Assembly: GCF_039535785.1 (NCBI RefSeq)
Contig: NZ_BAAAXV010000009.1
Span: 682,001-746,000 of the forward strand
Origin: Nonomuraea helvata
GTDB taxonomy: Bacteria > Actinomycetota > Actinomycetes > Streptosporangiales > Streptosporangiaceae
Direction of reading: 5' to 3'
DNA: 64,000 bases
Shown here: piece by piece, positions 48,412-64,000 of the stretch
Numbering within the stretch: position 1 is the stretch's first letter
Layout of the letters: each line of letters begins with the position of its first letter
The notes under the pieces: model-generated
Told to the model about the DNA's origin: nothing
What the model saw: the letters and a program-made list of their open reading frames with translations, nothing else
The model's database searches: none
Made by a program: the position numbers and the translations under genes

Positions 48412-50250
48412 TTAGCGCGTGATCCTTCTGATGATCGTCCGCGCCGTCAGCCGCCGCACCACCGTGCTCAGCCGCCCCTTCCCCGAGGTCGCGTACGGCC
48501 GCACGGTCCTGAGCACGGCCGCGCCCAGCCACCTGCGCGGCGCCGCGACCGTCTCGGCGTCGGTCTCGATCCTGAACCGCGCGGGCGGCCCGCCCAGATC
48601 GAGCTCCAGGTACGCGTCCCAGGTCCCCGGCGGCAGCCAGCCGATCGCGACCCTGGCCGCGAAACCGCCGCCCGGCAGCGCCAGCACGCCCTCGGTCCGC
48701 TCGCGTCCGGTGCGCCGCTCGCGCCAGACGATCTGCTTGACCGCCGAGACCGCCGGGGCGGTGCCGACGACGCTGACCTCGCCGTCGATGAGCAGCCGGT
48801 GCCCCAGCCCCCATCTCGTCCTGATGAGGCGCGCCGTGCCGGGCACCGCGACCACGTGGCCTCCGACGTCGATGCTGAGGTTGCCGTTGTCCCTGGTGAA
48901 GTAGGGCAGGGCCACCACGCCGTCGATCAGCCGGGACGGCGGGAGGGCGAGGCCGCTGTCGCGCTCGGCCCCGAGCCTGCCGAACCGCACCACGCCCTCG
49001 AGCTCGACCGCCACCCGCAGATCCCAGATCCCCGAGGCGAGCGCGGAGACGTCCACCCGCACGGTGAAATCGCCCCCCTTCCGCTCGGCCGGGATGACGA
49101 TCTCGGCGGCCGGGTCGTGCCGCGCGCGCAGCACCACGGCCAGGCCGTCGTCACTGCTGATGCCGTCCAGCCGGGCGGAGCCTGTCACCACCAGGCGGTC
49201 GCCGTCCCAGCGCAGCCCGGTCAGCCTGCGCCGCACGGTGGCGTTCTCGATGCGGGCTAGGCGGACCAGGCGGTCGATGTCCCCGAGCGCGGTCGCCCGC
49301 TGCCGGTCGATGCTGTTGAGCAGCTCGTGCACCCCGGGCGTGTACCACTCGTCGCAGAGTGCGGCCACCTCCCTGGCGATGTCCTTGCGCCGTATGTCGT
49401 CGCTCTCCAGGAACACCGCCCCGAGCTGCGCGAACGCGTCGAGCCTGAAGTGCCTGCGGAGCAGGTGGTCGCGGAGCGGGCCGGGCTCGACGTGCTCGGC
49501 CATGAGCCGGATCGGCCGCCTGATCATGGCCAGCCAGGCCAGCGGGTCCCTGCTGCCCTTCTGCTGCATGATGCTGCTGCCGTCGGGCCTGGACACGAGG
49601 TGGTAGCAGTCGTAGTCGGCCACCACGGAGATGACCCGGGCGTGGCAGTAGGCGTGGACGGTGAAGACGATGTCCTCGCCGACGAGCATGCCCTCGCCGA
49701 ACCTGATGCGGTGGCGTTCGAGCATCTCCCGCCTGAACAGCTTGAAGCAGCACAGGCTGTTGTAGACGTTGCTGTCGCCGAGGCCCACGCGGTTGGCGCT
49801 CTGCTGGAACATCGAGACCGGCGCGCGCCGGCCGTGCCCCACGATCTTGCCGAGGACGATGTCGGAGCCGTTCCTGTCGGCCATGGCGACCATGCGCTCC
49901 AGCGCCTCGGGGCCGAGGTAGTCGTCCGCGTCGCAGAAGAACACGTACCGGCCGGTGGCGTGCTCGATGCCGACGTTGCGCGGCCGGCCCGCGCCGCCGC
50001 TGCACTCGATGTGGACGACCTTGATGCTGTCCTTGTGATAGGTGGCGTAGAGGTCGAGCAGCTCGCCGCTGCCGTCCGTGGAGCCGTCGTCGACGACGAC
50101 GATCTCCTTCTTCACGCGCTGCACGAGCGCTGAGGTGAGGCATCTGTCGAGGTATGCCCGGCAGTTGTGCGCGGGGATGACGACGCTCACGTCAACCGCG
50201 TCGTCTTCGTTCCCCGTTGCCGACATCGCCACCACCGCCGCCTGAGTCAC
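48412..50250 (-). CDS. Family 2 glycosyltransferase with C-terminal beta domains
   Basis: This 612-aa protein starts with a GT-A domain (DVSVVIPAHNCRAYLDRCL, EIVVVDDGSTDGS, VFFCDADDYLG with the DxD-type acids, GEDIVFTVHAY). About 300 further residues follow, rich in beta strands (TGLRWDGDRLVVTGSARL). That layout resembles wall-teichoic-acid glycosyltransferases of the TarS type. It may decorate a cell-wall polymer. GTG 50250 gives the full frame; ATG 50226 (MSATGNEDD) is also possible. Confidence 0.86.
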   Translation of the reverse strand: MTQAAVVAMSATGNEDDAVDVSVVIPAHNCRAYLDRCLTSALVQRVKKEIVVVDDGSTDGSGELLDLYATYHKDSIKVVHIECSGGAGRPRNVGIEHATGRYVFFCDADDYLGPEALERMVAMADRNGSDIVLGKIVGHGRRAPVSMFQQSANRVGLGDSNVYNSLCCFKLFRREMLERHRIRFGEGMLVGEDIVFTVHAYCHARVISVVADYDCYHLVSRPDGSSIMQQKGSRDPLAWLAMIRRPIRLMAEHVEPGPLRDHLLRRHFRLDAFAQLGAVFLESDDIRRKDIAREVAALCDEWYTPGVHELLNSIDRQRATALGDIDRLVRLARIENATVRRRLTGLRWDGDRLVVTGSARLDGISSDDGLAVVLRARHDPAAEIVIPAERKGGDFTVRVDVSALASGIWDLRVAVELEGVVRFGRLGAERDSGLALPPSRLIDGVVALPYFTRDNGNLSIDVGGHVVAVPGTARLIRTRWGLGHRLLIDGEVSVVGTAPAVSAVKQIVWRERRTGRERTEGVLALPGGGFAARVAIGWLPPGTWDAYLELDLGGPPARFRIETDAETVAAPRRWLGAAVLRTVRPYATSGKGRLSTVVRRLTARTIIRRITR

Positions 50251-50543
50251 GTTGCGCTGTTGTCCGGTCTCAGTATGTGACCGCCAACGGTCTTCATGGG
50301 GGCGGATCGGGCGTCTTCATCCCCGGCTTTTGCCGAGAGCGGAGATTTACGGCATTCCACTAATAGCCGATGAAGTACCGCATTTGGCCTGGACCGAACG
50401 AGTTTCAGGGACGAGGTTTTCCTACCGAGGAATAGAAACCTTTCCACCAGGATCATTGAGATACCCCCGCACGTCGGCGGGTGATCCGCCTCCGAGAGTT
50501 GCGCGTCTACAGTTAGGCATCCTTGACCGGGAGGTGGCGGTAA
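50251..50543. other. Intergenic region between divergent genes, relatively AT-rich
   Basis: This 293-base stretch is the longest gene-free segment of the window. It is noticeably richer in A and T than its surroundings around 50330-50460. A CATACT box (minus strand, 50272-50277) could serve the glycosyltransferase gene and TACAGT near 50511 the plus-strand gene, but I found no convincing -35 boxes and no strong hairpin or open frame. Confidence 0.5.
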
Positions 50544-50885
50544 ATGGGATCGGATCTCCGCAGGCGGGCGGCGTACGAGTCGCCCGAGCACTCTGCCGAG
50601 TTCATTGCCTCGGCGGCTCGACTGGAAGAGCTGCACGAGTGCTCCGCACTGCTTCGCCGTACGAGGATGCGGGCCGAAGAGATCGTGGACGAGGCGCGTG
50701 CCCTCCTGGCGGAGGCCGAGCAGCGCGGCGAGGAGGACCGCGTCCTGGAGCTGCGCGTCCAACTGGAGCAGGCGCGCGGGCTGTACCGCAAGGTGCTGAA
50801 CGCGTACGTGACGATCTGCCACAACATCACCGAGGAACGCCAGGAGATCTTGCGGGAGCACATGGGGTTGTCAGGAGCAGCCTGA
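50544..50885 (+). CDS. Coiled-coil protein of unknown function
   Basis: This 113-aa protein is mostly helical and charged: EFIASAARLEELHECSALLR, RAEEIVDEARALLAEAEQRG and RVQLEQARGLYRKVLNAYVT form likely coiled coils. No domain is recognised. The ATG has GGGAGGTGG upstream. It precedes the zinc-finger protein gene by 18 bases in the same direction, so the two may work together. Confidence 0.75.
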   Translation: MGSDLRRRAAYESPEHSAEFIASAARLEELHECSALLRRTRMRAEEIVDEARALLAEAEQRGEEDRVLELRVQLEQARGLYRKVLNAYVTICHNITEERQEILREHMGLSGAA

Positions 50886-50903
50886 CGATAGTAGTGTCAG
50901 GCC

Positions 50904-51266
50904 ATGCCTGACTGGAAGGAAAAGATCCGCTGCTCTTTCTGTCACAAGAAGAGCGCGGAGGTGACCAAGATGGTTGCCGGTCCTGGTGTGCACATTTGCG
51001 ACGAATGCATAGGACTGTGCAATGACATCCTCGAAGGGGAAAAGCTTTCCTCCACCGAGCCCCGGCTCCCGATGTGGGAGTCGATGACCGAAGAGCAGAT
51101 ACTCGAGCACCTCCCGAAAATCGCCGCCGTGCAAGCACAGGTGGACGACAATCTGCGCGACTGGGTGGCGCACCTGCGCACCAGGGACGTCAGCTGGGAA
51201 CGCATCGGCACCTCGCTCGGCATGACGCGGCAGTCCGCGTGGGAACGTTTCAGGACCGAGACCTGA
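50904..51266 (+). CDS. ClpX-type C4 zinc finger protein with C-terminal helix-turn-helix
   Basis: This 120-aa protein has a ClpX-like zinc-binding domain at the N-terminus ([19 protein letters not shown], then [13 protein letters not shown]; two CxxC pairs). The C-terminal half contains a likely DNA-binding turn ([20 protein letters not shown]). The AAA+ ATPase of ClpX is absent. In ClpX the zinc domain recognises substrates and adaptors, so this protein could be a regulator or an adaptor; neither role is shown. It lies between the coiled-coil gene and a 48-aa ORF. Confidence 0.85.
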
Positions 51267-51317
51267 TCCGTGAACCGTTGTGGCGCGTGGGACGTCCTAT
51301 AGCCAGGGAGGCCCAAC

Positions 51318-51464
51318 ATGCGCGCGCTCGACGGTCTCGCGGCGCCCGATCTCCAGGAGCTCCAACTGGAGCTGCTGCTGATCCTGGCGCTGCATGAAGA
51401 GGCGGAGAAACGGGCTCCAGCTCCCCGGGACACACCCGGGGAGCTGGAGCAGGGGGACGGGTGA
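51318..51464 (+). CDS. Very small protein (48 aa), Leu/Glu-rich
   Basis: This 48-codon frame starts at ATG 51318 with a strong AGGGAGG six bases upstream. It encodes a helix rich in Leu and Glu (LQELQLELLLILALHEEAEK) and a Pro/Gly/Glu tail. Its last third coincides with a perfect 16-bp inverted repeat. It follows the zinc-finger gene by 51 bases. The good ribosome site argues for translation; function unknown. Confidence 0.55.
   Translation: MRALDGLAAPDLQELQLELLLILALHEEAEKRAPAPRDTPGELEQGDG
51414..51450 (+). terminator. Perfect 16-bp stem-loop inside the 3' end of the 48-aa ORF
   Basis: GCTCCAGCTCCCCGGG and CCCGGGGAGCTGGAGC pair without mismatch around an ACACA loop. No T-run follows. It may end the transcript from 50544, or attenuate it while ribosomes translate the small ORF. 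The following gene has its own -10 box at 51486. Confidence 0.65.
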
Positions 51465-51485
51465 GAGCGCCTGCCGGACGCCTCG

Positions 51486-51491
51486 TAAGAT
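51486..51491 (+). promoter_or_regulatory. -10 box for leaderless dehydrogenase transcription
   Basis: TAAGAT lies seven bases before the ATG at 51499; no Shine-Dalgarno is present. The box is close to the TATAAT consensus and its spacing fits a leaderless message. Confidence 0.55.
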
Positions 51492-51498
51492 TCCGGCC

Positions 51499-52443
51499 AT
51501 GCTGCGCTGCGCCGTGCTTGACGACTACCAGGGAGTGGCTCTCGGCCTGGCCGACTGGTCCAGGGTGCGGGCCACGAGCTTCCGCGGCCACTTCACCGGC
51601 CGGGACGAGCTCGTGGCCGCACTCCACGACTACGAGATCGTGGTCGCCATGCGGGAGCGCACGCCGCTCCCGGCCGAGGTGCTCGACCGGCTGCCCAATC
51701 TCCGGCTGCTCATCACCACGGGCATGCGCAACGCCGCCATCGACCTGGACGCGGCGCGGGCGCGCGGCGTCACGGTCTGCGGCACGGGCAGCAGCTCGAC
51801 CCCGCCGGTCGAGCTCACCTGGGCGCTGATCCTCGGCCTCACCCGCCATCTGGTGCCGGAGGCGACGGCCCTGCGCGCGGGCGGCCCCTGGCAGAGCACG
51901 CTGGGCACGGACCTGCACGGCCGCACGCTCGGGCTGCTGGGGCTCGGCAAGATCGGGTCCAGGATGGCGGAGATCGGCCGGGCGTTCGGCATGGACGTCG
52001 TGGCCTGGAGCCGGAACCTGACCCAGGAACGTACGGACGCCCTCGGGGTGCGGCTCGCCCCGGGCAAGGACGCGCTGCTGGCCGAGGCCGACATCGTCTC
52101 CGTCCACCTCGTGCTGAGCGAACGGACGCGGGGACTCATCGGGGAGCGTGAGCTGTCGCTGATGCGGCCGGACGCGTACCTGGTGAACACCTCGCGGGCG
52201 GCGATCGTCGACCAGGAGGCGCTGGCGGCGGCGCTGCAGGCGGGGCGGATCGCGGGGGCCGGGCTGGACGTGTTCGAGACCGAGCCGCTGCCCCCCGGCC
52301 ACGAGCTGCGCACGCTGCCCAACGTGCTCGCCACGCCGCACCTGGGTTACGTGACGGAGCTGAACTACCGTACGTACTTCCGCGAGGCGGTCGAGGACAT
52401 CGACGCCTTCCTCGCCGGCGCCCCCATCCGCCGGCTGGCGTGA
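51499..52443 (+). CDS. D-2-hydroxyacid dehydrogenase family protein
   Basis: This 314-aa NAD-dependent oxidoreductase has the dinucleotide motif GLGKIGSRMAEIGRAFGMDV (near 150-170). The catalytic Arg is in LVNTSRAAIVDQ, the Glu in DVFETEPL and the His in ATPHLGYVTELNY. Relatives reduce 2-keto acids or act as phosphoglycerate-dehydrogenase-like enzymes; the precise substrate is open. ATG 51499 starts the usual domain and is probably leaderless. It is convergent with the CGNR gene. Confidence 0.9.
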   Translation: MLRCAVLDDYQGVALGLADWSRVRATSFRGHFTGRDELVAALHDYEIVVAMRERTPLPAEVLDRLPNLRLLITTGMRNAAIDLDAARARGVTVCGTGSSSTPPVELTWALILGLTRHLVPEATALRAGGPWQSTLGTDLHGRTLGLLGLGKIGSRMAEIGRAFGMDVVAWSRNLTQERTDALGVRLAPGKDALLAEADIVSVHLVLSERTRGLIGERELSLMRPDAYLVNTSRAAIVDQEALAAALQAGRIAGAGLDVFETEPLPPGHELRTLPNVLATPHLGYVTELNYRTYFREAVEDIDAFLAGAPIRRLA

Positions 52444-52445
52444 CC

Positions 52446-53012
52446 TCAGGCCCTGCTCCTGGCCCGGAAAGCGGCCGTCTTGACGCGGTTCTGGCAGGCC
52501 GTGGAGCAGAACCTGCGGGTGCCGTTGCGTGACACGTCCACGTAGACGCGGTCGCAGTGCGGCGCCGTACAGACGCCCAGGCGGTCGCTGAACTCGCCGC
52601 CCAGCACGATCGCGAGCCCGGTGGCGCAGCTCGCCCCCCACTCGCCCGCCAGGGTGCCGCCGCGGCCGTGGAAGTGCAGGTGCCACGGCTCGCCGTCGTG
52701 CCGCTGGAGCATGGGCCTGGCGTGGGTCTCGTCCAGCAGCGCGTTCACCTGTCCTGCCGCCGTGTCGATGTCGCCGGCGGCCACGGCGGCGAAGACCGTC
52801 CGCAGGCGGGCGGCCACCTCGGCCAGCTCGGCGCCCTCCGGCTCGGCGACCTCGCGATGGTTCGGATAGACGGTACGCAGGCCCTCAGTGGCGGCGGCGC
52901 CGGGCCTCCCGGGCGCCGGATGGTCGCGCCCCCGCCTCTCACCTGGGGTGAGGGCGTTGACGAGCGCCACCGCTGCTCTGACCACTCCATCGGCGTGACT
53001 GTTGAAATCCAC
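52446..53012 (-). CDS. CGNR zinc-finger (ABATE-domain) transcriptional regulator
   Basis: This 188-aa protein has an N-terminal ABATE-like ligand domain starting VDFNSHADGVVRAAVALVNA and a C-terminal zinc finger (LGVCTAPHCDRVYVDVSRNG, then RRFCSTACQNR). The CGNR signature is changed to CQNR. It probably controls the divergent methyltransferase gene. GTG 53012 gives the canonical start; a longer frame up to TTG 53054 would run into the inverted repeat at 53040-53075. Confidence 0.85.
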   Translation of the reverse strand: MDFNSHADGVVRAAVALVNALTPGERRGRDHPAPGRPGAAATEGLRTVYPNHREVAEPEGAELAEVAARLRTVFAAVAAGDIDTAAGQVNALLDETHARPMLQRHDGEPWHLHFHGRGGTLAGEWGASCATGLAIVLGGEFSDRLGVCTAPHCDRVYVDVSRNGTRRFCSTACQNRVKTAAFRARSRA

Positions 53013-53039
53013 TTGACCGGTTACACCTTCGTGTTCTAG

Positions 53040-53075
53040 CTTGTGACTGCCCAAAGCTTAGACGACAGTTACAAG
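53040..53075. promoter_or_regulatory. Inverted repeat between CGNR regulator and methyltransferase genes
   Basis: CTTGTGACTG (53040-53049) and CAGTTACAAG (53066-53075) pair at nine of ten positions with a 16-base spacer. The repeat covers the region just upstream of the methyltransferase ribosome site. It is a good candidate for the CGNR protein's binding site. Confidence 0.5.
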
Positions 53076-53084
53076 GAGCCGTAC

Positions 53085-53843
53085 ATGCTCACTCACGATG
53101 CCGCATCGCAGTGGATGGCGCGCTGGGACCGTCAGCAGGAGGGCTACCTGCCGGATCGCGAGGAGCGGTTCACCGCTCTGATCGACGCCGTGGAGGCGCT
53201 GGGGCGGCCGGATCCGGTGGTGATCGACCTGGGCTGCGGCCCCGGCTCGCTGTCCGCCCGGCTGCTCGACCGCCTCCCGGAGGCGAGGGTGATCGCGGTG
53301 GACGCCGACCCGCTGCTGATCGGGCTCGGGCGTACCGCGTACCCGCAGATCACGTTCGTCTCGGCGGACCTCCGTACCGGCGGGTGGACGGATCTGCTCG
53401 GGCTGGACGGACCCGCCGACGCCGCGATCAGCACGACGGCACTGCACTGGATCTCCGCCGCCGACCTCAAGGGCATGTACGGGGAGGTCGCGGCCGTGCT
53501 GCGGCCGGGCGGGCTGCTGCTCAACGGCGACCATCTGGACACCGACGACGCCACCCCGGCCCTCGCGCGCCTGGAGCACGCCGTCCACGACAGGGAGACG
53601 GAGCGGAGGTTCGGCGCGAACCCGCCGGAGGACTGGCGGGCCTGGTGGGACGCGGTCCAGGCGGATCCCGCCTTCGCCGAGCTCCATGAGGAGCGGCGCA
53701 CCACGGCCGGGGCCTCCCACCACGGCTCCGAGTCCCGGCTCCTGTCGGAGCACGTCCAGGCGCTCCGGGAGGCCGGCTTCTCGGAGATCGGCACGCTCTG
53801 GCAGCGGGGCAACAACCGCCTGCTGTGCGCCGTACGCGGCTGA
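53085..53843 (+). CDS. Class I SAM-dependent methyltransferase
   Basis: This 252-aa methyltransferase has motif I VVIDLGCGPGSLSARLL (near residue 45), VIAVDADPLLIGLGR, DAAISTTALHWIS and LRPGGLLLNGD. It is most like small-molecule methyltransferases of the trans-aconitate/UbiE-type group. ATG 53085 has AAGGAG six bases upstream and is preferred to a GTG at 53043. The divergent CGNR regulator probably controls it. Confidence 0.88.
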   Translation: MLTHDAASQWMARWDRQQEGYLPDREERFTALIDAVEALGRPDPVVIDLGCGPGSLSARLLDRLPEARVIAVDADPLLIGLGRTAYPQITFVSADLRTGGWTDLLGLDGPADAAISTTALHWISAADLKGMYGEVAAVLRPGGLLLNGDHLDTDDATPALARLEHAVHDRETERRFGANPPEDWRAWWDAVQADPAFAELHEERRTTAGASHHGSESRLLSEHVQALREAGFSEIGTLWQRGNNRLLCAVRG

Positions 53844-53857
53844 CCTCTATACAGTCA

Positions 53858-53871
53858 ACCAAGCGCTTGCT
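53858..53871 (+). promoter_or_regulatory. KstR2-type TetR operator before the cholesterol-oxidase unit
   Basis: ACCAAGCGCTTGCT matches the published KstR2 consensus AnCAAGnnCTTGnT at every fixed position; its core CAAGCGCTTG is a perfect palindrome. It lies between TATACA (53848-53853, a possible -35) and TACGCT (53871-53876, a possible leaderless -10 six bases before the ATG). A bound repressor would block the promoter. Many TetR proteins use similar cores, so the cognate regulator is unproven. Confidence 0.6.
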
Positions 53872-53882
53872 ACGCTCCGGCC

Positions 53883-54941
53883 ATGATGTCCACGGTCGTC
53901 TGGGGCACCGGCAACGTCGGCCGCGCGGCCATCCGCGCCGTCGCAGCCCACCCGGAGCTGAAGCTCTCAGCCGTACTCGTCAACGATCCGGGCAAAGCGG
54001 GCCGGGACGCCGGGGAGCTCGGCGGGCTCGGCCACCCGCTCGGGGTCGCGGCGACCGACGACGTCGAGGCGGTGCTGGCCGCGAGCCCCAGAGCCGTGGT
54101 GTACGCGGCCTCGGGCGACCTCCGCCCCGACGAGGCGCTCGCCGATGTCACCCGGGCGATCCGGGCGGGGGCCGTCGTCGTCACCCCCTCCCTGTACGCG
54201 CTCTACGACCAGCGCGGCGCCCCGCCGGAGCTGCGCGAGCAGGTGCTGGCCGCCATCGGCGAGGGCGGCGGCTCGCTGTTCGTCTCAGGCATCGACCCCG
54301 GCTGGGGCAACGACGTGCTGCCGCTGCTGGTCAGCGGGCTCGGCACCGCCATTGACGCGATCCGCTGCCAGGAGATCTTCGACTACTCCACGTACGACCA
54401 GCCGGACTCGGTCCGGTACCTGGTCGGCATGGGCCAGCCGATGGAGTACGAACCGCCCATGATCGCGCCGACCGTCCCGACGATGGTGTGGGGCGGGCAG
54501 ATCCGCCTGATGGCCAGGGCGCTCGGCGTCGAGCTCGACGAGATCCGCGAGAGCCGGGACCGGCGCCCGCTCGACGCCACCGTGGGCGAGTACGAGGCGG
54601 GGACCCAGGGCGCGGTGCGGTTCGAGGTGCAGGGCATCGTCGGGGGCGAGCCCCGCATCGTCATCGAGCACGTCACCCGCATCCACCCGTCCTGCGCGCC
54701 GGACTGGCCGACGCCCCCGAACGGCGTGGGCGCGCACCGCGTGATCATCGAGGGCCGTCCGCGCATCGAGGTCACGGTCGAGGCCACGGACGAGGGCGGC
54801 AACGGCTCCGCAGGCGGGAACGCCACCGCGGTCGCCCGGCTGGTGGGCGCCATCGGCTGGCTCGCCGACGAGGAGCCAGGACTGTACGACGCGCTCGACG
54901 TCCCGCTGCGCCCCGGCAGACTCGGAGGTGACCGGCCGTGA
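53883..54941 (+). CDS. NAD(P)-binding dihydrodipicolinate reductase-like oxidoreductase
   Basis: This 352-aa protein has an N-terminal Rossmann motif (STVVWGTGNVGRAAIRAVAA) and a C-terminal substrate domain; GIDPGWGNDVLPLLVSG is conserved in the group related to 2,4-diaminopentanoate dehydrogenase. Relatives are often found in sterol and steroid catabolic clusters. It is the first gene of a unit with a CMD-like protein gene (GTGA overlap) and cholesterol oxidase. The substrate is unknown. Confidence 0.85.
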   Translation: MMSTVVWGTGNVGRAAIRAVAAHPELKLSAVLVNDPGKAGRDAGELGGLGHPLGVAATDDVEAVLAASPRAVVYAASGDLRPDEALADVTRAIRAGAVVVTPSLYALYDQRGAPPELREQVLAAIGEGGGSLFVSGIDPGWGNDVLPLLVSGLGTAIDAIRCQEIFDYSTYDQPDSVRYLVGMGQPMEYEPPMIAPTVPTMVWGGQIRLMARALGVELDEIRESRDRRPLDATVGEYEAGTQGAVRFEVQGIVGGEPRIVIEHVTRIHPSCAPDWPTPPNGVGAHRVIIEGRPRIEVTVEATDEGGNGSAGGNATAVARLVGAIGWLADEEPGLYDALDVPLRPGRLGGDRP

Positions 54942-55418
54942 ACATCGACATCCCCCAGGACAGGGACCCGATCGCGTACGTGTGGGGCGAGATGGTGCCC
55001 GGCATCGGGATCGCCGCCTCGAAGTTCTCGATGGCGGTGTACGCCCACAGCACGCTCGGACTGCGCGAGTTCGAGGCGGCCCGGCTGCGCATCGCCCAGA
55101 TCAACGGGTGCGCCTTCTGCCTCGACTGGCGTACCGAACGTGACGGGGAGAAGGTCGAGGAGGAGTTCGCCGAGTCGGTGACGCAGTGGCGCACCACCGA
55201 CGCCTTCGACGAGCGCACCCGCCTGGCCGCCGAGTACGCCGAGCGGTACACCCTCGACCACCACGGGCTCGACGACGAGTTCTGGGCGCGGATGACCGCG
55301 CACTACAGCCAGCTCGAGATCGTGGAGCTGAGCATGTGCCTCGGCTCATGGCTGGCGTTCGGCCGCCTCAACCACGTGCTTGGCCTCGACACCGCCTGCA
55401 CGCTGACCGGCGGCTCCT

Positions 55419-55444
<26 letters not shown>
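54938..55444 (+). CDS. Carboxymuconolactone decarboxylase (AhpD-like) family protein
   Basis: This 168-aa helical protein has the CxxC motif CAFCLDWRTERD within the CMD fold (FEAARLRIAQINGCAFCLDW). The His usual after the CxxC is Arg here, so a peroxidase-type mechanism is doubtful. GTG 54938 overlaps the previous stop by four bases. Its linkage with the oxidoreductase and cholesterol oxidase genes suggests a role in steroid breakdown. Confidence 0.82.
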
Positions 55445-57115
<1,671 letters not shown>

Positions 57116-57123
57116 ACCGGACG

Positions 57124-57148
57124 GGCAGCCCCGCGACGCGGGGCTGCC
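57124..57148. terminator. Hairpin between cholesterol oxidase and SMR genes
   Basis: GGCAGCCCCGC and GCGGGGCTGCC form a perfect 11-bp stem with a three-base loop, between two convergent genes; it should work in both directions. Confidence 0.8.
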
Positions 57149-57161
57149 GTTCTCCGGTGGG

Positions 57162-57482
57162 TCAGGCTCCGGCGGCCAGTTTGAGGGTGATGGCGCCGAG
57201 GATGATGGCGGCGAACGACAGCACCTTGGGCAGAGTGATCTTCTCCTTGTAGATCAGAGCACCCAGGATGACGGTGCCGATGGAGCCCAGACCGGTCCAG
57301 ACGGTGTAGCCGACGCCCACGTCCAGGGTCCTGAGCGCCAGGCTGAGGGTGAAGATGCCGCCCGCGGCGGCCAGCAGGGTGAAGACCGAGGGCCACAGCT
57401 TGGTGAAACCCTGGGTGGCGTTGGTGCCGAGCGCGAAGGCGATCTCGAAGACGATGGCGATCGCCAGGTAGATCCAGGCCAT
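57162..57482 (-). CDS. SMR-family multidrug efflux subunit (second of pair)
   Basis: This 106-aa protein has four membrane helices and the essential Glu13 in IAIVFEIAFALGTNATQGFT, followed by LDVGVGYTVWTGLGSIGTVI. It is an EmrE-like proton-coupled exporter. It lies 31 bases downstream of a paralogue with 114 aa; paired SMR genes (EbrAB or YkkCD type) usually form heterodimers. Quaternary cations are likely substrates. Confidence 0.92.
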   Translation of the reverse strand: MAWIYLAIAIVFEIAFALGTNATQGFTKLWPSVFTLLAAAGGIFTLSLALRTLDVGVGYTVWTGLGSIGTVILGALIYKEKITLPKVLSFAAIILGAITLKLAAGA

Positions 57483-57513
57483 GACGGTGTGCTCCTTGAT
57501 CGAGGGTGAGTGG

Positions 57514-57858
57514 TCAGCCTGCGGTGGCCTGATCCTTGGTGAACGTGTCGGCGAGCTTGAGCCCCAGGACGCCGCCGATGATGAGGACGAAGGCGAGCGC
57601 CTTCCAGATGTTCATCGACTCATGGAAGATCACGGTCCCGAACACCACCGTGCCGACCGAGCCGATGCCCGTCCACACGGTGTAGCCGACGCCCACGTCC
57701 AGCGTTCTCAGCGCCTGGCTGAGGAAGAAGATGCCACCGGCGGCGGCCGCGGCGGTGAGCAGGGACGGGCCGAGTTCGGTGAAGCCGTTGGTCGCGTTGG
57801 TGGCCAGGGCGAACACCACCTCGAAGACCGAGGCGATCAACAGGTAGATCCAGGCCAT
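57514..57858 (-). CDS. SMR-family multidrug efflux subunit (first of pair)
   Basis: This 114-aa four-helix protein has Glu13 in IASVFEVVFALATNATNGFT and the same central motif (LDVGVGYTVWTGIGSVGTVV) as its partner. It is transcribed divergently from a MarR-type gene, and the region between holds repeated sequences, so drug-induced expression is plausible. No guanidine riboswitch is visible. Confidence 0.92.
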   Translation of the reverse strand: MAWIYLLIASVFEVVFALATNATNGFTELGPSLLTAAAAAGGIFFLSQALRTLDVGVGYTVWTGIGSVGTVVFGTVIFHESMNIWKALAFVLIIGGVLGLKLADTFTKDQATAG

Positions 57859-57875
57859 GTGAGCTGCTCCAAAGT

Positions 57876-57930
57876 AGTTGCATGTATGTACAAGTAATCC
57901 CGACTCGAAAAAGTATGCATGTACAAGTAA
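57876..57930. promoter_or_regulatory. Direct repeats between the SMR pair and its MarR gene
   Basis: ATGTACAAGTAA occurs at 57886-57897 and 57919-57930, 33 bases apart, about three helical turns. Each copy is preceded by GCATGTA. TTG...CAA half-sites make each copy weakly palindromic. They lie between the SMR start (57858) and the MarR start (57962) and are likely MarR binding sites. Confidence 0.6.
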
Positions 57931-57961
57931 ACTCGTGTCAATCGCCGCCGAAGGAGACCAC

Positions 57962-58441
57962 GTGACGTCGTCAACCGCTCAGATCGCCCCGAGCGACACC
58001 GGGGATGGGCTCATGTGGAACCACATGCTCAGCTTGTACGCGCATGTCGAGCACAGCCTCGGCACCGCCCTCCAGCGCCGGCACGGTCTCGGCCTGTCCG
58101 AGTACCGCGCGCTCGACCTCCTGGCCGGCGCTCACGACGGCGAACTCCGCATGCAGGACCTGGCGGCGCGCCTGGGGCTGAACCAGAGCTCGGTCACCCG
58201 CCTGGTCAGCCGGCTGAACGCCGCAGGATACACGTACCGCGACCTGTGCCCCGACGACAAGCGGGGCGTCTACACCGTCATCACGGATGCCGGCCGCGCC
58301 CGCCACCGCGAGGCGCGGAGCACCTACGCCCAGGTCCTGTCAGCCGCCCTGGACGCAGCCGCGCAGCAGAACCCGCTGCTCAGCACCCTGCTGACCACCG
58401 CCAGGCCGCTGTTCACCACCAGTCCTCAGGACGGGCACTGA
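57962..58441 (+). CDS. MarR-family transcriptional regulator
   Basis: This 159-aa protein has the MarR winged helix (LSEYRALDLLAGAHDGELRM, then LNQSSVTRLVSRLNAAGYTY and DKRGVYTVITDAGRARHREA). GTG 57962 has AAGGAG five bases upstream; the longer frame from 57878 would start inside the operator repeats. It probably represses the divergent SMR pair. Confidence 0.9.
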   Translation: MTSSTAQIAPSDTGDGLMWNHMLSLYAHVEHSLGTALQRRHGLGLSEYRALDLLAGAHDGELRMQDLAARLGLNQSSVTRLVSRLNAAGYTYRDLCPDDKRGVYTVITDAGRARHREARSTYAQVLSAALDAAAQQNPLLSTLLTTARPLFTTSPQDGH

Positions 58442-59091
58442 CCGTCCAGAGCGCTGATCACCCCGTCGATGAACACCTGTGACTTGGGTTCGTCGGCATG
58501 GGCCACCCCGGCGAACTCGGCCCTGCACCACACCCCGTCGATGACGTCGTTGCGCGTCTCGTCGAGCGAACTCGCCAGCAGCGTGTACCGGACCGGGTCG
58601 GGGGTCGGGTCGCCGCTGTTGAGCCGGCTGAGGAAGGTGCTGGAGGGGCACATCTGCCCGCCCTGGTTCGCCGGCAGGAGGCAGGCAGGCCAGTAGCCGC
58701 GCTGACCGGTGCCCATCGAGACGTAGCTCAGCGTCGCGTCGGCGCCGCCGAGGAACTTCAGGTAGTGGCGCGCCGACAGTCCTCCCATGCTGTGCCCGAC
58801 GAGGCTGACCTTCCCACCGCCGTGCTCCTGCCGCACCTGCGTCACCAGGTTCCTGATGGCTTCGGCGTTGGCGACGTTGTCCCCGCCCGGCAGGGTGATC
58901 GCGTACGCGGGATGACCGTCCTGCTCCAGCGCCGCCTTCATCTGGGTGAACTCGGTCGGCGAGCCGTTCCAGCCGTGGATCAGGATGACCGGCTCCCGCT
59001 CCGCGGCCTGGGCCGCGTGAGCGGTGCCCGACCCGGCGAGCAAGGTGCCCGCGACGACTAACACTCCGATGTGCCGGCGCTGCCATGACAT
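58426..59091 (-). CDS. Secreted lipase/esterase (class 2 lipase-like)
   Basis: This 221-aa protein has an N-terminal signal peptide (IGVLVVAGTLLAGSGTAHAA) and an alpha/beta-hydrolase domain with LIHGWNGSPTEF and the nucleophile Ser in LVGHSMGGLSARHYL. The acid and His probably lie in the C-terminal part (RNDVIDG, and AGVAHADE). It resembles small LipA/EstA-type lipases. ATG 59091 has GAGG six bases upstream. A TetR gene is divergent, with an operator between them. Confidence 0.88.
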   Translation of the reverse strand: MSWQRRHIGVLVVAGTLLAGSGTAHAAQAAEREPVILIHGWNGSPTEFTQMKAALEQDGHPAYAITLPGGDNVANAEAIRNLVTQVRQEHGGGKVSLVGHSMGGLSARHYLKFLGGADATLSYVSMGTGQRGYWPACLLPANQGGQMCPSSTFLSRLNSGDPTPDPVRYTLLASSLDETRNDVIDGVWCRAEFAGVAHADEPKSQVFIDGVISALDGQCPS

Positions 59092-59119
59092 GGGCCACCT
59101 CGCCAATCCAGAGGGACTT

Positions 59120-59143
59120 CACTTAGCGAGTGCTCGGTAAGTG
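59120..59143. promoter_or_regulatory. TetR operator between lipase and TetR genes
   Basis: CACTTA-CGAG and CTCG-TAAGTG form a 24-bp near-perfect palindrome; mismatches occur only at one pair in each arm and at the two central bases. It lies between the divergent starts and is the probable binding site of the adjacent TetR protein, covering both promoters. Confidence 0.7.
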
Positions 59144-59149
59144 ATGCGC

Positions 59150-59155
59150 TAGATT
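59150..59155 (+). promoter_or_regulatory. -10 box for leaderless TetR gene transcription
   Basis: TAGATT lies seven bases before the GTG start at 59163, with no Shine-Dalgarno between; a leaderless message is likely. Confidence 0.5.
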
Positions 59156-59162
59156 TAACACT

Positions 59163-59783
59163 GTGCCCCGGAGTAGGCAAGACCCAAGCAGGCAGGAACG
59201 CGCCCGCCTGCGGCGAGAAGAGATCATCGCGGTGGCCGCGGAGATGTTCGCGCGCGGCGGCTACCGCGGCACATCTCTGGCCGACATCGCGGCCCGGGCG
59301 GGCATCAGCGAGCCCGGCCTCCTCCACCACTTCGGCAGCAAGGCCGGTCTGCTCCTGGCGGTGATCGAGCGGCGCGACCTCGACAGCGAGATGTTCGCGA
59401 TGGAGCTCCTGGGCATGGAGCCCACCGGGCGGCTGCGGGCCCTGCCGGAGTTCGCGCGCCGCAACAAGGACCGGGTGGGGCTGGCCAAGCTGTTCACCGT
59501 CCTGGTCGCGGAGAGCCTCGAGCCCGGCGCTCCCGGCCATCAGCACTTCGTCGACCGCTACCGCGCGATGCGCGCCATCGTGGCCGACAGCATCCGTTCC
59601 GCACAGGCCGCCGGCCTCACCCGCGCGGACATCGACCCCGCGGCCAAGGCGGCCGAGATCATCGCGACCCTCGACGGCCTGCAGACCCAGTGGCTGCTCG
59701 ACCCCGACATGATCGACATCGTGGCCGGCGTCGAGTCCTACGCCCGCACCCTGGAGCACGACCTCACATGCGGCCTCCCATGA
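59163..59783 (+). CDS. TetR-family transcriptional regulator
   Basis: This 206-aa protein has a TetR DNA-binding domain (RREEIIAVAAEMFARGGYRG, SLADIAARAGISEPGLLHHF). The C-terminal domain is of the type common in regulators of lipid or drug genes. GTG 59163 is probably leaderless. It likely represses itself and the divergent lipase through the palindrome at 59120. The 3' end overlaps the convergent lyase-kinase gene by 46 bases. Confidence 0.92.
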   Translation: MPRSRQDPSRQERARLRREEIIAVAAEMFARGGYRGTSLADIAARAGISEPGLLHHFGSKAGLLLAVIERRDLDSEMFAMELLGMEPTGRLRALPEFARRNKDRVGLAKLFTVLVAESLEPGAPGHQHFVDRYRAMRAIVADSIRSAQAAGLTRADIDPAAKAAEIIATLDGLQTQWLLDPDMIDIVAGVESYARTLEHDLTCGLP

Positions 59784-61081
59784 AACCGTGAAAGCGCTTC
59801 ATGTACGGCGGCCGCGGGCGGGCGCTCGGCGGGGTCGTCGGCGAGCAGGGCCGTCACCAGCCTGCTCACCTCGGCGGGCGCCGCGATCCCGTCCAGAAGC
59901 TGCCGGAGGACCGCGCCCAGCGCGTACAGGTCCTGTTCGACCACCAACGTGGTGAACGGCCACTCCGGCGGCACATGCCCGGGGCTGCCCCACGGCCACG
60001 GGTCGGGGTCGCTGATCGGACACGCCCCCTCGAGGTCGATGGCCCGCACCCCGTCCGGCGCCGCGATCAGGTTGGTCACCTTGCAGTCGCGCCACGCCCA
60101 GCCTGCTGCATGGATGCCGGCCACCACCTCGGCCACGCCCGCGGCGGCCCCTACCCGCTCGCGTTCACCCGGCAGCTCCAGCAGCCCGGGACCGTCGAGA
60201 TGCTCCATGACGATGTAGTGGTTCTCCTCCCACGCGAAGGAGTCCAGCAGCACCGGCACGGGGGCGCCGGCGGCTGACAGTTCCGCCAGCACCCGGGCCT
60301 CGTGCGCGACGCGGTCGCGGCCGTCGCGCCCGTCGAAGTCGGTCTCGCCGTGCCTCCTGCCCTCCTTGAGCACCACGCGTTCGGCCGGTGACGATCTCAG
60401 GTCGAGCGCGCGGTACGTGCCGCCCTTGCCGCGCTGCGCGATGGACTCGTAGGCCAGGTAGGTACGGGCGAGCGGACCTCGCGGCGGCTCCGGCGGCGCC
60501 GCGGGGAACAGGTCCTCCACCCAGCCGGGCACCGCCTCGGCGCGCCGGTCGGGCTGCAGCTGACCGTCGGGGGTGACCAACGCGTCCACCTGCACGCCGT
60601 CCACCTCGACCTGGCTGACCGGATGGAACGCTCCATAGCGGTAATGCACCACGCTGCCCGGCCGCAGCCGGCGGTCGAAGGGCACTCGGGGGCCGGGCAC
60701 ACCGCGCAGCTCGACGTCCAGCCTGCCGGCCAGCGACCTGGCCCGGTCGGCGTCACCGGCGTACGCGGTGATCACCTTGCCGATCTGCGTGTAGCCGTAG
60801 AACAGGCCCGAGTTCAGGCGGCGGATGTCGACCATGGACCCCGGCGCCTTCCACAGCACCGACATCTCGGCCAGCACCGGAGCCACCCTGCGAAGCACGT
60901 CGGCGGCCGAGCGCGAGGTCGCCGACACGTGGAGCTTCCAGCCCTGTGTGCCGTCGGCCTGAGAGCTGGACGGCCGGTTGAACCGCCAGATCGACTCCGG
61001 CGCGGCGTGTGGCAGATGCTCTGCCACCAGCGCGCGCCACTCCTGCTCGGCGCCGGCGATGACGTCCTTCGGGGCGATCAC
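59738..61081 (-). CDS. Lanthipeptide-synthetase-like lyase-kinase without a cyclase domain
   Basis: This 447-aa protein has an N-terminal domain (about 25-155; APESIWRFNRP, GWKLHVSA, LNSGLFYGYTQIGKVITAY, VVHYRYG) like the phospho-Ser/Thr lyase part of LanKC/LanL enzymes. A kinase-like domain follows (about 205-440) with Lys239 (VVLKE), Arg331-Asp332...Asn337 (RDCKVTN) and Asp349 (IDLEG). The LanC cyclase present in classical class III and IV synthetases is absent. It should phosphorylate and eliminate Thr/Ser in the peptide encoded just upstream. GTG 61081 overlaps that gene's stop as GTGA. Confidence 0.85.
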   Translation of the reverse strand: MIAPKDVIAGAEQEWRALVAEHLPHAAPESIWRFNRPSSSQADGTQGWKLHVSATSRSAADVLRRVAPVLAEMSVLWKAPGSMVDIRRLNSGLFYGYTQIGKVITAYAGDADRARSLAGRLDVELRGVPGPRVPFDRRLRPGSVVHYRYGAFHPVSQVEVDGVQVDALVTPDGQLQPDRRAEAVPGWVEDLFPAAPPEPPRGPLARTYLAYESIAQRGKGGTYRALDLRSSPAERVVLKEGRRHGETDFDGRDGRDRVAHEARVLAELSAAGAPVPVLLDSFAWEENHYIVMEHLDGPGLLELPGERERVGAAAGVAEVVAGIHAAGWAWRDCKVTNLIAAPDGVRAIDLEGACPISDPDPWPWGSPGHVPPEWPFTTLVVEQDLYALGAVLRQLLDGIAAPAEVSRLVTALLADDPAERPPAAAVHEALSRFHGRPHVRSCSRVRA

Positions 61082-61386
61082 TCGTTGACCACCTGAACGG
61101 CCGTGGTCGTGGTCGTGGTGGTGGTCGTCGTGGTGATCGTGCAGGCCGCCGTGGTGGTCGTGGTGGTCGTCGTCACCGTCAGCGAGGTCGTTCCCGCATC
61201 CTCGTCGCTCGCCGTCGGAGCCAGCTGCGCCAGCGCGTCGGGCGACTGCGCGAAGTACCCGATGAGCTCCTGCCACGCCGCGCCGGCGAACCCCTCCCTG
61301 GCCACAGCCATGCTCTTGTCACGCAGTTCCTCCGCGAAGGCGGTGTCCTGGAGGGCGCGGTCGATGACTTCGTCGATCTTGGACAT
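61078..61386 (-). CDS. RiPP-type precursor peptide with poly-threonine core
   Basis: This 102-aa peptide has a helical acidic leader (residues 1-65; MSKIDEVIDRALQDTAFAEE, FAGAAWQELIGYF, ALAQLAP) and a core of 37 residues. The core contains Thr66-67, Ser68, Thr70, eight Thr (72-79), Ala-Ala-Cys82, Thr83-Ile, eleven Thr (85-95) and the tail AVQVVNE: 23 Thr, one Ser and one Cys. The Thr codons mix ACC and ACG, so the tract reads as selected protein rather than simple codon slippage. ATG 61386 has AAGGAG nine bases upstream. Its stop overlaps the modifying-enzyme start. Confidence 0.85.
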   Translation of the reverse strand: MSKIDEVIDRALQDTAFAEELRDKSMAVAREGFAGAAWQELIGYFAQSPDALAQLAPTASDEDAGTTSLTVTTTTTTTTAACTITTTTTTTTTTTAVQVVNE

Positions 61387-61452
61387 GGTGTCTGTCTCCT
61401 TTCTGCCCTCAGGGTCGTCCGCCTGCCGCGACATCGCATGAGTAACCCGTAC

Positions 61453-62724
61453 CTAATCGGCGAGCCGGGCGAGGAACGGCGTCAGCGTGTTCAGCATGGT
61501 GTTCTTCGCGGGGGCCGCCAACAGCGGGTCCAGATGGGTCATGGCGCTGTCCTCGGCATACGTCACGTCGGTGATCCGCGACTGCGCCGCCACCCACGCG
61601 GCGGCCTTGTTGACGGTGCCGTGCGTCAGACCGCTCTGGAAGGAGTACAGCGGTACGTCGATCTCGCGGGTGTGCGTGAGGCGCAGCCCCAGCTTCCGGG
61701 CGACCGAGGTGTCGTCGAACGGGTCGGCTGCCTCGAGATCGAGGCTGAGCCGGTTCGGCCAGTACCACTCGAACAGGGCGGGCACGGGGCCGGCCAGCGC
61801 GCGGGCAAGGGTGGCGGTCGAGGTGTAGGCCGGATTCACGCTGATGTCCGGCACCAGCGGATGGGTGGCGAACAGCCACTCGACCAGCCCTTCGTTGGTC
61901 ACCTTCGCCGGTGGACGCAGCTGGTCCGGCAGGTGGCCGGCCACCGCCGAGGGTTCGTCCGCGAGTGCCGCCGCGTACTTGCCCGCGAGCTGCTGCAGGA
62001 TCGCGAACGTCTCGGTCCGGCCCATGGTGAGCGACTTGTCGAAGACCTCGCCATCCGCGATCTTGGCGAGCCGGGCATCCGCCTGGTCGGCGGTGAGCCG
62101 GTAGGTGTAGCCCTCCCCGGCGAAGGCGTCGTGCACGCCGCCGTCGATCAGCGCCAGACCTGACAGGTCGCGGTATCCGGGGTGACCGTCGAAGTCCCAG
62201 CCGGCGTACGCGAGCGCGGTGGTCGCGCCCCACGAGTGCCCGCCCAGGATCACCCGGCGGCGTCCGCCGTCGGCTGCCGCGAGCACCACCTTCCGCAGGT
62301 CGGCGAGTTCGACGCCGAGACCCCACGTCCCGACGTACGGCACGCTCTGTGGCGTCCGCGCCCGGTAGCGCCCGCCGAGGTAGTAGTCGGCGGCGCGGTC
62401 CGGCGGGCGGCGGAACCCGCGCAGATCGGCCAGGTTCTGCTCCCGGCGATCGACGGCCCAGACCTGGGTGCCGGGCAGCCGGGCGGCCAGCTCCCTGGCG
62501 AGCGGACCGAAGCCGCCCGCGGCCCCGAACTGCCCGGCCACCAGCACCACGACCTGCCGGGCGTCGGCGGAACCGACTTTCAGCACATGGACCCGGTCAT
62601 CGGCGGCGGGGCCCGGCGCGTCGGCCCCGGGCATCGACACGTAGGCCTCCCGGACCTTCCCTGTGGCGGCCCCCGTGGTGAGGGCCAGGGCCATCGTGAT
62701 CGCACAGATCCACGGAACTCTCAT
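61453..62724 (-). CDS. Secreted alpha/beta-hydrolase upstream of the poly-Thr peptide
   Basis: This 423-aa protein has a signal peptide (MRVPWICAITMALALTTGAA) and an alpha/beta-hydrolase fold with the nucleophile Ser in ILGGHSWGATTALAYAG. The His is probably in SAMTHLDPLLAAPAKN near the C-terminus. It is secreted, so its substrate is outside the cell or in the membrane. It lies 66 bases upstream of the precursor gene in the same direction; it could process or act on the mature product, or be unrelated. ATG 62724 has AAGGAGG upstream. Confidence 0.85.
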   Translation of the reverse strand: MRVPWICAITMALALTTGAATGKVREAYVSMPGADAPGPAADDRVHVLKVGSADARQVVVLVAGQFGAAGGFGPLARELAARLPGTQVWAVDRREQNLADLRGFRRPPDRAADYYLGGRYRARTPQSVPYVGTWGLGVELADLRKVVLAAADGGRRRVILGGHSWGATTALAYAGWDFDGHPGYRDLSGLALIDGGVHDAFAGEGYTYRLTADQADARLAKIADGEVFDKSLTMGRTETFAILQQLAGKYAAALADEPSAVAGHLPDQLRPPAKVTNEGLVEWLFATHPLVPDISVNPAYTSTATLARALAGPVPALFEWYWPNRLSLDLEAADPFDDTSVARKLGLRLTHTREIDVPLYSFQSGLTHGTVNKAAAWVAAQSRITDVTYAEDSAMTHLDPLLAAPAKNTMLNTLTPFLARLAD

Positions 62725-62904
62725 CGCTTCCTCCTTGTGGGTGTCTCGACCCGGAAGAGCGCTCGGACCGCCCGGACGTTCCACGTGTTCTGCGTCACAG
62801 GGCCCGCTGAAGATGGCATGGAACCTCAGCGGCGGAGAGCGCCTCTTCCTGGTTGACGTCGCCCGGCAGAGGCGGCCCGACGAGCTGCTGACAGGATGCA
62901 TCAA

Positions 62905-63387
62905 GTGAACGAGCTGGTGAGGGCGGCGCAGCGCGGCGACACCATGGCGATGAACGAGCTGCTCGACCTGCTCACGCCGTACGTCACCCGGATCTGCGGC
63001 CCGATCGCGCTGGCCGATGGGCCGGACGCGGCGCAGGAGGCGCTGATCGCGATCTTCAAGGGTCTGCGCGGCCTGCGCGAGCCCGCCGCACTGTACGGCT
63101 GGGCCAGGGCGATCGCGGTGCGTGAGGCGGTGAGGGTGGCCAGGCGGAGCCGTCACACGGTCGAGTTCGAGGACGACCTGCCCTCACCCACTGACCTGGA
63201 GCAGGCGGCGGACATCAGGGACCTGCTCGCCCGGCTCTCGCCGGAGCACCGGGCGGTGCTGATGCTTCGCGACGTGGAGGGACTCGACGAGCGGGCGGCG
63301 GCCGAGCTGCTCAAGGTGCCGGTGGGGACGGTCAAGTCGAGGCTGTTCAGAGCCAGAGACAACTTCAGGAAGGCGTGGTCGTCATGA
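62905..63387 (+). CDS. ECF sigma factor (short, RpoE-like)
   Basis: This roughly 160-aa sigma factor has region 2 (VRAAQRGDTMAMNELLDLLT, PDAAQEALIAIFKGLRGL, YGWARAIAVREAVR) and region 4 (LSPEHRAVLMLRDVEGLDER, LKVPVGTVKSRLFRARDNFR). GTG 62905 gives the family-like start VNELVRAAQRGD, with AGG about nine bases upstream; ATG 62896 is an alternative but sits on that site. It overlaps the next gene as ATGA. Confidence 0.9.
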   Translation: MNELVRAAQRGDTMAMNELLDLLTPYVTRICGPIALADGPDAAQEALIAIFKGLRGLREPAALYGWARAIAVREAVRVARRSRHTVEFEDDLPSPTDLEQAADIRDLLARLSPEHRAVLMLRDVEGLDERAAAELLKVPVGTVKSRLFRARDNFRKAWSS

Positions 63388-63836
63388 GTGGTTCGTGGCC
63401 GGTGGCCGAGCTTGACCCCGTCCGCAGGCTGCACGTGCTCGCCTCGGCGATATCGGGGGCGGCGGTGGCGTCCCGGGTCATCTCCGCGCCGTTCGAGCAG
63501 GTGTGGCAGGTGGCGGGCGACCTGGAGCGGGGGCTCGGCACGTTCGAGCCGGACATGCGATCCGTGCGCGTCGAACAGACCGAATCCGGACTTGTCGCCC
63601 ACGCTCGCAGCCGGTACGGCTTCCGCGCCCGCTTCGAGGTGGACCTGCGGCCGGGCTGGGTCTGGATGCAGAGCCGGTTCCTGCTGATCGGGCTCGCGGC
63701 CGTACCCGTCGCCGGGGGGACGCTGTTCGCGGCGACGGGCGGCGTACGCGTGCCCGGTCGCGCCGGCCTCGTCCCCCTCCTCGTACGGCGGGCCAACGAG
63801 CGCGCGCTCGATCGCCTGGCCGCCCGGTTCAGCTGA
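63384..63836 (+). CDS. SRPBCC-like protein coupled to the ECF sigma gene
   Basis: This 150-aa protein has a polyketide-cyclase/START-like pattern (ASRVISAPFEQVWQVAGDLE, GFRARFEVDLRPGWVWMQSR). ATG 63384 overlaps the sigma-factor stop by four bases, so the two are translated together. It may bind a small hydrophobic ligand and influence the sigma factor, which is a guess from context. No signal peptide is present. Confidence 0.8.
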   Translation: MSGSWPVAELDPVRRLHVLASAISGAAVASRVISAPFEQVWQVAGDLERGLGTFEPDMRSVRVEQTESGLVAHARSRYGFRARFEVDLRPGWVWMQSRFLLIGLAAVPVAGGTLFAATGGVRVPGRAGLVPLLVRRANERALDRLAARFS

Positions 63837-63866
63837 AGGGAGCCAGCAGTCAGCGGGTGAAGGGGG

Positions 63867-64000
63867 TCAGCGGCTGTCGCGCCGCCAGCGCTCGACCTCC
63901 TCCTCCAACGCCTGCTCATCCAGCTCCGGCACGAACACACTGGTCGCCCACTCCACGAGGAGCCGCACGAACTCGGCATCCTCGTCGTCGGTCCGGCCGT
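63867..64000 (-). CDS. Hypothetical protein, C-terminal fragment (runs off the right edge)
   Basis: An open minus-strand frame enters from the right edge and ends at the TGA at 63867-63869. It encodes at least 44 residues ending in VPELDEQALEEEVERWRRDS followed by Arg, acidic and helical. It lies 30 bases beyond the stop of the convergent SRPBCC gene. The family cannot be told from this piece. Confidence 0.6.
   Translation of the reverse strand, partial: GRTDDEDAEFVRLLVEWATSVFVPELDEQALEEEVERWRRDSR

Follow-up and report, generated by a model that had tools for sequence, protein, structure and literature searches.

The stretch of DNA analysed here, termed the window, is 64,000 nucleotides in length and belongs to the Nonomuraea helvata genome (contig NZ_BAAAXV010000009.1, positions 682,001 to 746,000). 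On its minus strand, the window carries a cassette of two adjoining genes, one for a small peptide with a threonine-rich C-terminal part and one for a stand-alone lyase-kinase (Table 1). The two genes probably constitute a minimal system for a ribosomally synthesized and post-translationally modified peptide (RiPP), in which the enzyme would bind a leader and dehydrate many Thr residues of a core, with the possible formation of a single ring. The precursor–enzyme pairing is seen in Actinomycetota and Alphaproteobacteria.

Table 1. Coordinates of the cassette and its parts (window numbering, except for the Salipiger genes, which are numbered within locus L032).
Feature	Coordinates	Strand	Remarks
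Conserved cassette, 1.66 kb	59795..61456	minus	87.6% DNA identity to the 17-kb locus of a second Nonomuraea
Stand-alone lyase-kinase gene	59738..61081	minus	447 aa; GTG start overlaps precursor stop; no cyclase domain
Ser/Thr kinase domain, residues 202–437	59771..60478	minus	K239, E261, WRDxxxxN D332/N337, DLE D349
Lyase (RamC_N) domain, residues 28–198	60488..61000	minus	K49, H51, K78, K102, D136, R148, R180
Precursor peptide gene	61078..61386	minus	102 aa; open reading frame, homologs and alignment
Poly-Thr core, residues 66–95	61102..61191	minus	23 Thr, 1 Ser, 1 Cys
Thr79-Ala-Ala-Cys82 (T-x-x-C) motif	61141..61152	minus	Candidate methyllanthionine site; alignment of 16 peptides
Leader, residues 1–64	61195..61386	minus	Predicted helical; weakly NHLP-clan-like (NF038399, below cut-off)
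Upstream stretch common to the second Nonomuraea	61387..61456	minus	Includes ribosome-binding-site-like AAGGAG
Salipiger tandem Thr-rich precursors	5170-5454 and 5566-5841		

The Thr residues of the core include a run of eight at residues 72–79 and a run of 11 at residues 85–95, and the single Cys is residue 82. The coordinates, the strand, the length of the peptide and the 23 Thr in runs of 8 and 11 had been given by an earlier, sequence-only reading of this DNA and are confirmed. A start at 61434, which would yield a peptide of 118 amino acids, is rejected, as 61386 is better supported by the AAGGAG site and by the homologs.

At the codon level, the core Thr residues are specified by 11 ACC and 12 ACG triplets, and the DNA is repetitive. 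This raises the question of whether the tract is a functionless expansion of ACS triplets. The codons are mixed, however, and between the two Nonomuraea copies the core (residues 65–95) displays four silent and two amino acid codon changes; the leader (residues 1–64) displays 13 silent and 14 amino acid changes, both sets being small numbers. In addition, the same Cys motif recurs in the Thr-rich cores of peptides that are 31–53% identical to this one overall (poly-Thr included). The pattern (ACN)8 is found at one further place in the 11.26-Mb genome, and a reversed control pattern gives two matches. A triplet-repeat artefact is contradicted by conservation across genera and phyla; it is scarcely credible and is rejected. 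The proposal that selection acts on the protein, made in the sequence-only reading, is supported by the changes seen in the core.

At the level of protein structure, the leader is predicted (AlphaFold) to form helices at residues 3–13, 15–31, 36–45 and 49–55. The Os1348 NHLP-clan model, NF038399, is matched by 10 of 14 family members, always weakly (best E 0.0017), and the window precursor (P0001) scores 15.3 bits against a cut-off of 40, which does not reach the threshold for a curated NHLP-clan leader. By eye, the LxLQ-type motif of class III leaders is absent from P0001 and from the family consensus. Six leader columns, D14, A18, L21, A46, P49 and L52, are invariant in all 16 Thr-type precursors described below. 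Since the leaders of these peptides align, the peptides are homologs and more than a set of Thr-rich sequences. The suggestion of a leader-like N-terminus and a RiPP architecture is supported, as the same design recurs in other genomes.

The GTG start of the enzyme gene lies inside the precursor stop codon (GTGA), and this start is supported by the closest relative, P0004 of Nonomuraea sp. NBC_00507, whose first residue corresponds. With Pfam, the RamC_N family (PF25816) is matched above its cut-off (E=3.2e-36) and Pkinase just below (E=5e-7, 29.8 bits versus a cut-off of 31.7); kinase folds matched in the PDB support the Ser/Thr kinase domain. The stop/start overlap and the likeness to a lyase and a kinase, both pointed out in the sequence-only reading, hold on the basis of these findings. 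The NCBIfam LanL and LanKC models are matched in their N-terminal halves only (profile positions 5–394 of 851 and 40–449 of 833), with scores of 285 (cut-off 650) and 227 (cut-off 575). Neither a LanC-like cyclase domain (PF05147) nor a HopA1 or APH match is found in the enzyme by Pfam up to E=1. The enzyme has seven of the eight residues given for the ThurKC lyase, and each of the seven is conserved in at least 24 of the 25 sequences aligned. Kinase residues E261, D332, N337 and D349 are identical in all 25, and K239 in 21. The end of the enzyme gene (59738-59783) runs into the 3′ end of a convergent TetR gene (59163-59783, plus strand), and from around residue 430 onwards the tail of the enzyme is unlike that of the copy in the second Nonomuraea.

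Cyclase-less lyase-kinases are not few. A database search confined to proteins of 0.55–1.75 times the query length yields 1009 matches at E<=0.001, a number that says nothing on relative frequency because full-length synthetases (∼850 amino acids) are excluded by the length filter. The 120 matches listed are 435–531 amino acids in length and, by eye, display both Pfam domains and no LanC domain; named sources among them include Pyrinomonadaceae, Fictibacillus and Leptolyngbya. Enzyme loci were also obtained from Acidobacteriota and Verrucomicrobiota.

A search with the single peptide sequence gives three matches, and a profile that includes two Acidobacteriota precursors gives 50. Thr-rich cores, with 18–24 Thr within some 30 residues, are found in 13 of the 50, and the other 37 have at most nine Thr per 30 residues; the Thr-rich share is no estimate of commonness, since Thr-rich cores are already part of the query profile. 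The 37, which fall within P0126–P0171, are leader-related and without Thr tracts, and many have a conserved core Cys-Gly, a second core type. The 13, the query and two Salipiger peptides, the latter three counted separately, make up the 16 Thr-type precursors, and their named sources are Nonomuraea, Streptomyces (P0142) and a Salipiger plasmid.

The plasmid of Salipiger sp. CCB-MM3 carries two tandem precursors (94 and 91 amino acids) directly before an enzyme of 43% identity. Their cores are shorter, with 12 Thr and three Cys each. For the first precursor, the plasmid record gives, in place of the peptide, a frame (5382-5576) that overlaps its end, and a class I S-adenosylmethionine-dependent methyltransferase gene follows that of the enzyme (L032 7780-8610). 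In all three loci that can be read as DNA, the enzyme gene is directly downstream of the Thr-rich precursor. A further Thr-rich precursor, P0154, may lie on one contig with enzyme P0098, as their contigs are equal in length (4918); this pair is left out of the count. The sequence-only reading had proposed a search of genomes for Thr-run peptides beside LanKC-like proteins lacking LanC, and had regarded a lack of homologous pairs elsewhere as evidence against it; such pairs are found in the second Nonomuraea and on the Salipiger plasmid.

Two Acidobacteriota loci (L014 and L016) have leader-related precursors that keep columns W38, F45, P49 and L52, with an enzyme of the same family directly downstream and no cyclase. 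No Thr-rich peptides are found beside the six enzyme loci L014–L019. L015 starts at a contig edge, L018 by eye has no leader-related open reading frame upstream of the enzyme, and L017 and L019 have unrelated small open reading frames. The latter two, from Verrucomicrobia (L017 5576-5892 and L019 5694-5882), contain RLDDLIPxQDVTGGRQLLFGV and are located just upstream of stand-alone lyase-kinases; perhaps they represent another substrate type of the lyase-kinase family. In viral contigs, no precursor relative and one weak partial enzyme match are found. Among plasmids, the window precursor is unmatched and the Salipiger precursor matches its own record only. The enzyme matches seven plasmid records, of which that of Salipiger is the stand-alone one; five others carry a lanthionine synthetase annotation (LanL, LanKC or LanC family), and the one from Embleya is unannotated there.

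Alignment of the 16 Thr-type peptides on their last Cys reveals a conserved motif in the core. Ser or Thr is found at positions −3 and −4 from the Cys in all 16 peptides and at −2 or −1 in none, where Ala, Val, Leu, Pro, Gly, Phe, Ile or Met are found. Thr is present at +1 in 15 of the 16 and at +3 and +5 in all. At the remaining 20 of 22 core positions tested, 84% of residues are Ser/Thr, nearly all Thr. In 20,000 shuffles per core, at most six of 16 peptides are free of Ser/Thr at both positions, versus the 16 observed, and when close relatives are collapsed by hand, by similarity, into nine groups, the numbers are at most four versus nine. A single Cys is present in 13 of the 16 cores; the Salipiger pair and P0125, which has a second Cys within its N-terminal arm, differ. 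A Thr-x-x-Cys spacing matches a methyllanthionine ring of four residues, of which ring B of nisin is an example. The constancy of T-x-x-C in all 16 peptides suggests a (methyl)lanthionine crosslink in the product. The sequence-only reading had described the core as unlike the compact Ser/Thr-Cys patterns of lanthipeptides, which needs correction, as (S/T)(S/T)-x-x-Cys is fixed in the family. Because this motif, with no Ser/Thr at −2 and −1, is present throughout, one methyllanthionine ring is indicated as strongly as a linear poly-dehydrobutyrine (poly-Dhb) chain.

Perhaps the enzyme dehydrates no more than a single Thr or a few of them close to the Cys, such that the product has a single methyllanthionine ring and two Thr arms that stay unmodified and are beta-rich or serve a solubilizing role. 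Within the core, T-x-x-C is under the tightest constraint, and in the AlphaFold model of the precursor the unmodified core forms two strands, at residues 67–79 and 84–96, with a turn at Ala-Ala-Cys. The mean predicted local distance difference test score of this model is 67 overall, with values of 77–80 for residues 71–90 and 52–56 at the outer ends; it was built on 14 sequences, and no solved fold was found to match it (best E 5.6). A product of this type also leaves unexplained the high Ser/Thr content at the other core positions in a family that, where seen, is paired with a dehydratase. It is regarded as rather unlikely.

The preferred reading is dehydration along the core. The enzyme would bind the helical leader, its kinase domain would phosphorylate core Ser/Thr residues and its lyase domain would eliminate phosphate to yield Dhb at many positions. 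Conversion of Thr to Dhb by a kinase and then a lyase is the known chemistry of this enzyme family. Since −2 and −1 are never Ser/Thr and a Dhb would be placed at −3, Cys82 could add to Dhb79, closing a single methyllanthionine ring of four residues with a Dhb-rich arm on either side. Ring closure might occur spontaneously or with the help of a further host protein of the LanC type. As the cassette encodes no functions for leader removal and export, these would fall to the host. The excised dehydration domains of CurKC and SgbL are cited as active without their cyclases (PMC10676384). In its widest form, the proposal is of a separate, horizontally moving RiPP class, present at least in Actinomycetota and Alphaproteobacteria, in which most of 12–26 Thr would be converted to a near-continuous Dhb chain with one central methyllanthionine ring made without a cyclase; this is put forward tentatively, as a possibility that is somewhat doubtful.

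Several observations weigh against the preferred reading. ThurKC Lys108, which is required there for dehydration, has no counterpart; the residue here is Gly92, and it is Gly in 25 of 25 sequences. Lys239, present here, is Arg in four of the 25 (P0005, P0006, P0007 and P0009), all closer relatives. The CcaM dehydratase fails without its cyclase domain (PMC10676384), and the three domains of ThurKC act in concert (PMC10604976). The L014 and L016 precursor cores are without Thr tracts, so that poly-Thr is not a general requirement of the enzyme family. Pairing of the Thr type at the DNA level is seen at three loci only, the remaining Thr-rich precursors being without context. Moreover, the conserved cassette has no protease, transporter or immunity gene, and seven LANC_like places in the genome leave room for a cyclase acting in trans.

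Two other products should be considered in this context. If the kinase is active and the lyase weak or inactive, the product would be a poly-phosphothreonine peptide. The missing counterpart of Lys108 is in keeping with this, as are the phospho-intermediates described for the ThurKC lyase variants H67A and R191A (PMC10604976). The seven lyase residues are, on the other hand, kept in nearly every aligned sequence, and such a product is considered highly improbable. The second is a classical lanthipeptide, in which a separate LanC-type protein acting in trans would introduce several rings or crosslinks at the C-terminus. The seven LANC_like places, four of them in LanC-bearing RamC_N proteins and three elsewhere in the genome, could supply such a cyclase, and the three Cys of each Salipiger peptide would suit several rings. 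None of the seven places is in the window, however, and no LanC is found among eight scanned open reading frames of locus L030 or 11 annotated features of the Salipiger stretch. The single Cys of most cores also argues against several rings, and this alternative is thought improbable.

The cassette is a discrete unit, with different neighbours in the two Nonomuraea genomes. Of window positions 50001–64000, only 59795–61456 match the 17-kb locus of the second Nonomuraea. Neighbouring genes there encode a GNAT acetyltransferase and a luciferase-like monooxygenase; those in the window encode a TetR regulator and a protein whose similarity to alpha/beta-hydrolases is weak and below the cut-off. 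At least 10 other Nonomuraea genomes, all without the precursor, contain the left flank (58426-59779) at nearly full length. From these comparisons, the unit consists of the two genes and about 70 bp upstream. The unit is rare. Precursor and enzyme are found in two of 54 genomes of the genus, and in one of 150 in a family sample and one of 396 in a phylum sample (precursor profile; enzyme at E<=1e-60), both of these being the window's own genome. The precursor is found in none of 392 genomes of a genus presumed to be Streptomyces, a set without a positive control, yet P0142 is named Streptomyces. In Acidobacteriota, the enzyme is found at E<=1e-60 in one of 247 genomes, the centre genome itself. 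As the distribution is patchy and cassette-like, our guess is that the product is an antagonistic or signalling peptide. Elsewhere in the window, 57162-57482 (minus strand) is assigned by Pfam to the small multidrug resistance (SMR) proteins, the adjacent 57514-57858 (minus strand) appears similar by eye, and a MarR-type regulator lies beside the two.

The cassette shares properties with several known systems. Class V lanthipeptides (LxmK/LxmY; KinCD of kintamdin) are made by phosphorylation and elimination with a kinase and a lyase and without a fused cyclase, and are defined by a HopA1-like lyase and an APH-like kinase as separate proteins. The cassette likewise has no fused cyclase, but its enzyme is one RamC_N and Pkinase polypeptide, from different families. 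Class III and IV synthetases (LanKC/LanL; ThurKC, CuvL) resemble the enzyme in their N-terminal phosphothreonine-lyase, Ser/Thr kinase, catalytic residues and fold, and in having an adjacent precursor gene. Their solved chains are about 830–870 amino acids, however, whereas the enzyme here is little more than half as long and lacks the LanC-like domain. The core here is poly-Thr, usually with one Cys, and the leader is longer, helical and weakly NHLP-like, without the LxLQ motif described for class III (PMC7268733).

Linaridins such as cypemycin and corynaridin, largely linear and with many dehydrated Thr, are the nearest described products in function known to us, if the proposed dehydration holds. 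In corynaridin, seven Thr and one Ser are dehydrated, linaridin Thr/Ser may all be dehydrated, and crdG, crdE and crdL are the corynaridin genes suspected in dehydration (PMC9927463). The predicted dehydratase here is instead a lyase-kinase, and there are 23 core Thr compared with seven in corynaridin. No linaridin dehydration enzymes are found in the 1.66-kb cassette, which is filled by precursor and lyase-kinase; genes outside were partly scanned. The listings and passages of open-licence PMC papers that were searched gave no poly-Thr precursor paired with a cyclase-less lyase-kinase. Among dehydrated RiPP systems, the cassette would be new in bringing together a class III/IV-type dehydratase that lacks a cyclase, a poly-Thr core and a leader that is helical and NHLP-like.

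A 2020 lanthipeptide survey sorted clusters by proteins with a LanC-like domain (PMC7268733), so that lyase-kinases without a cyclase, and the precursors that go with them, are not covered. Searches that rely on the usual ring-closing enzyme would miss the poly-Thr cassette. If the widest proposal is true, ribosomal synthesis would yield a rigid, electrophile-rich foldamer for which the open-licence papers searched describe no natural counterpart. Provided that dehydration of the poly-Thr core takes place, two genes would suffice as a ribosomal route to long dehydrobutyrine oligomers, and would provide a test of cyclase-free ring closure and a dehydratase for peptide engineering.
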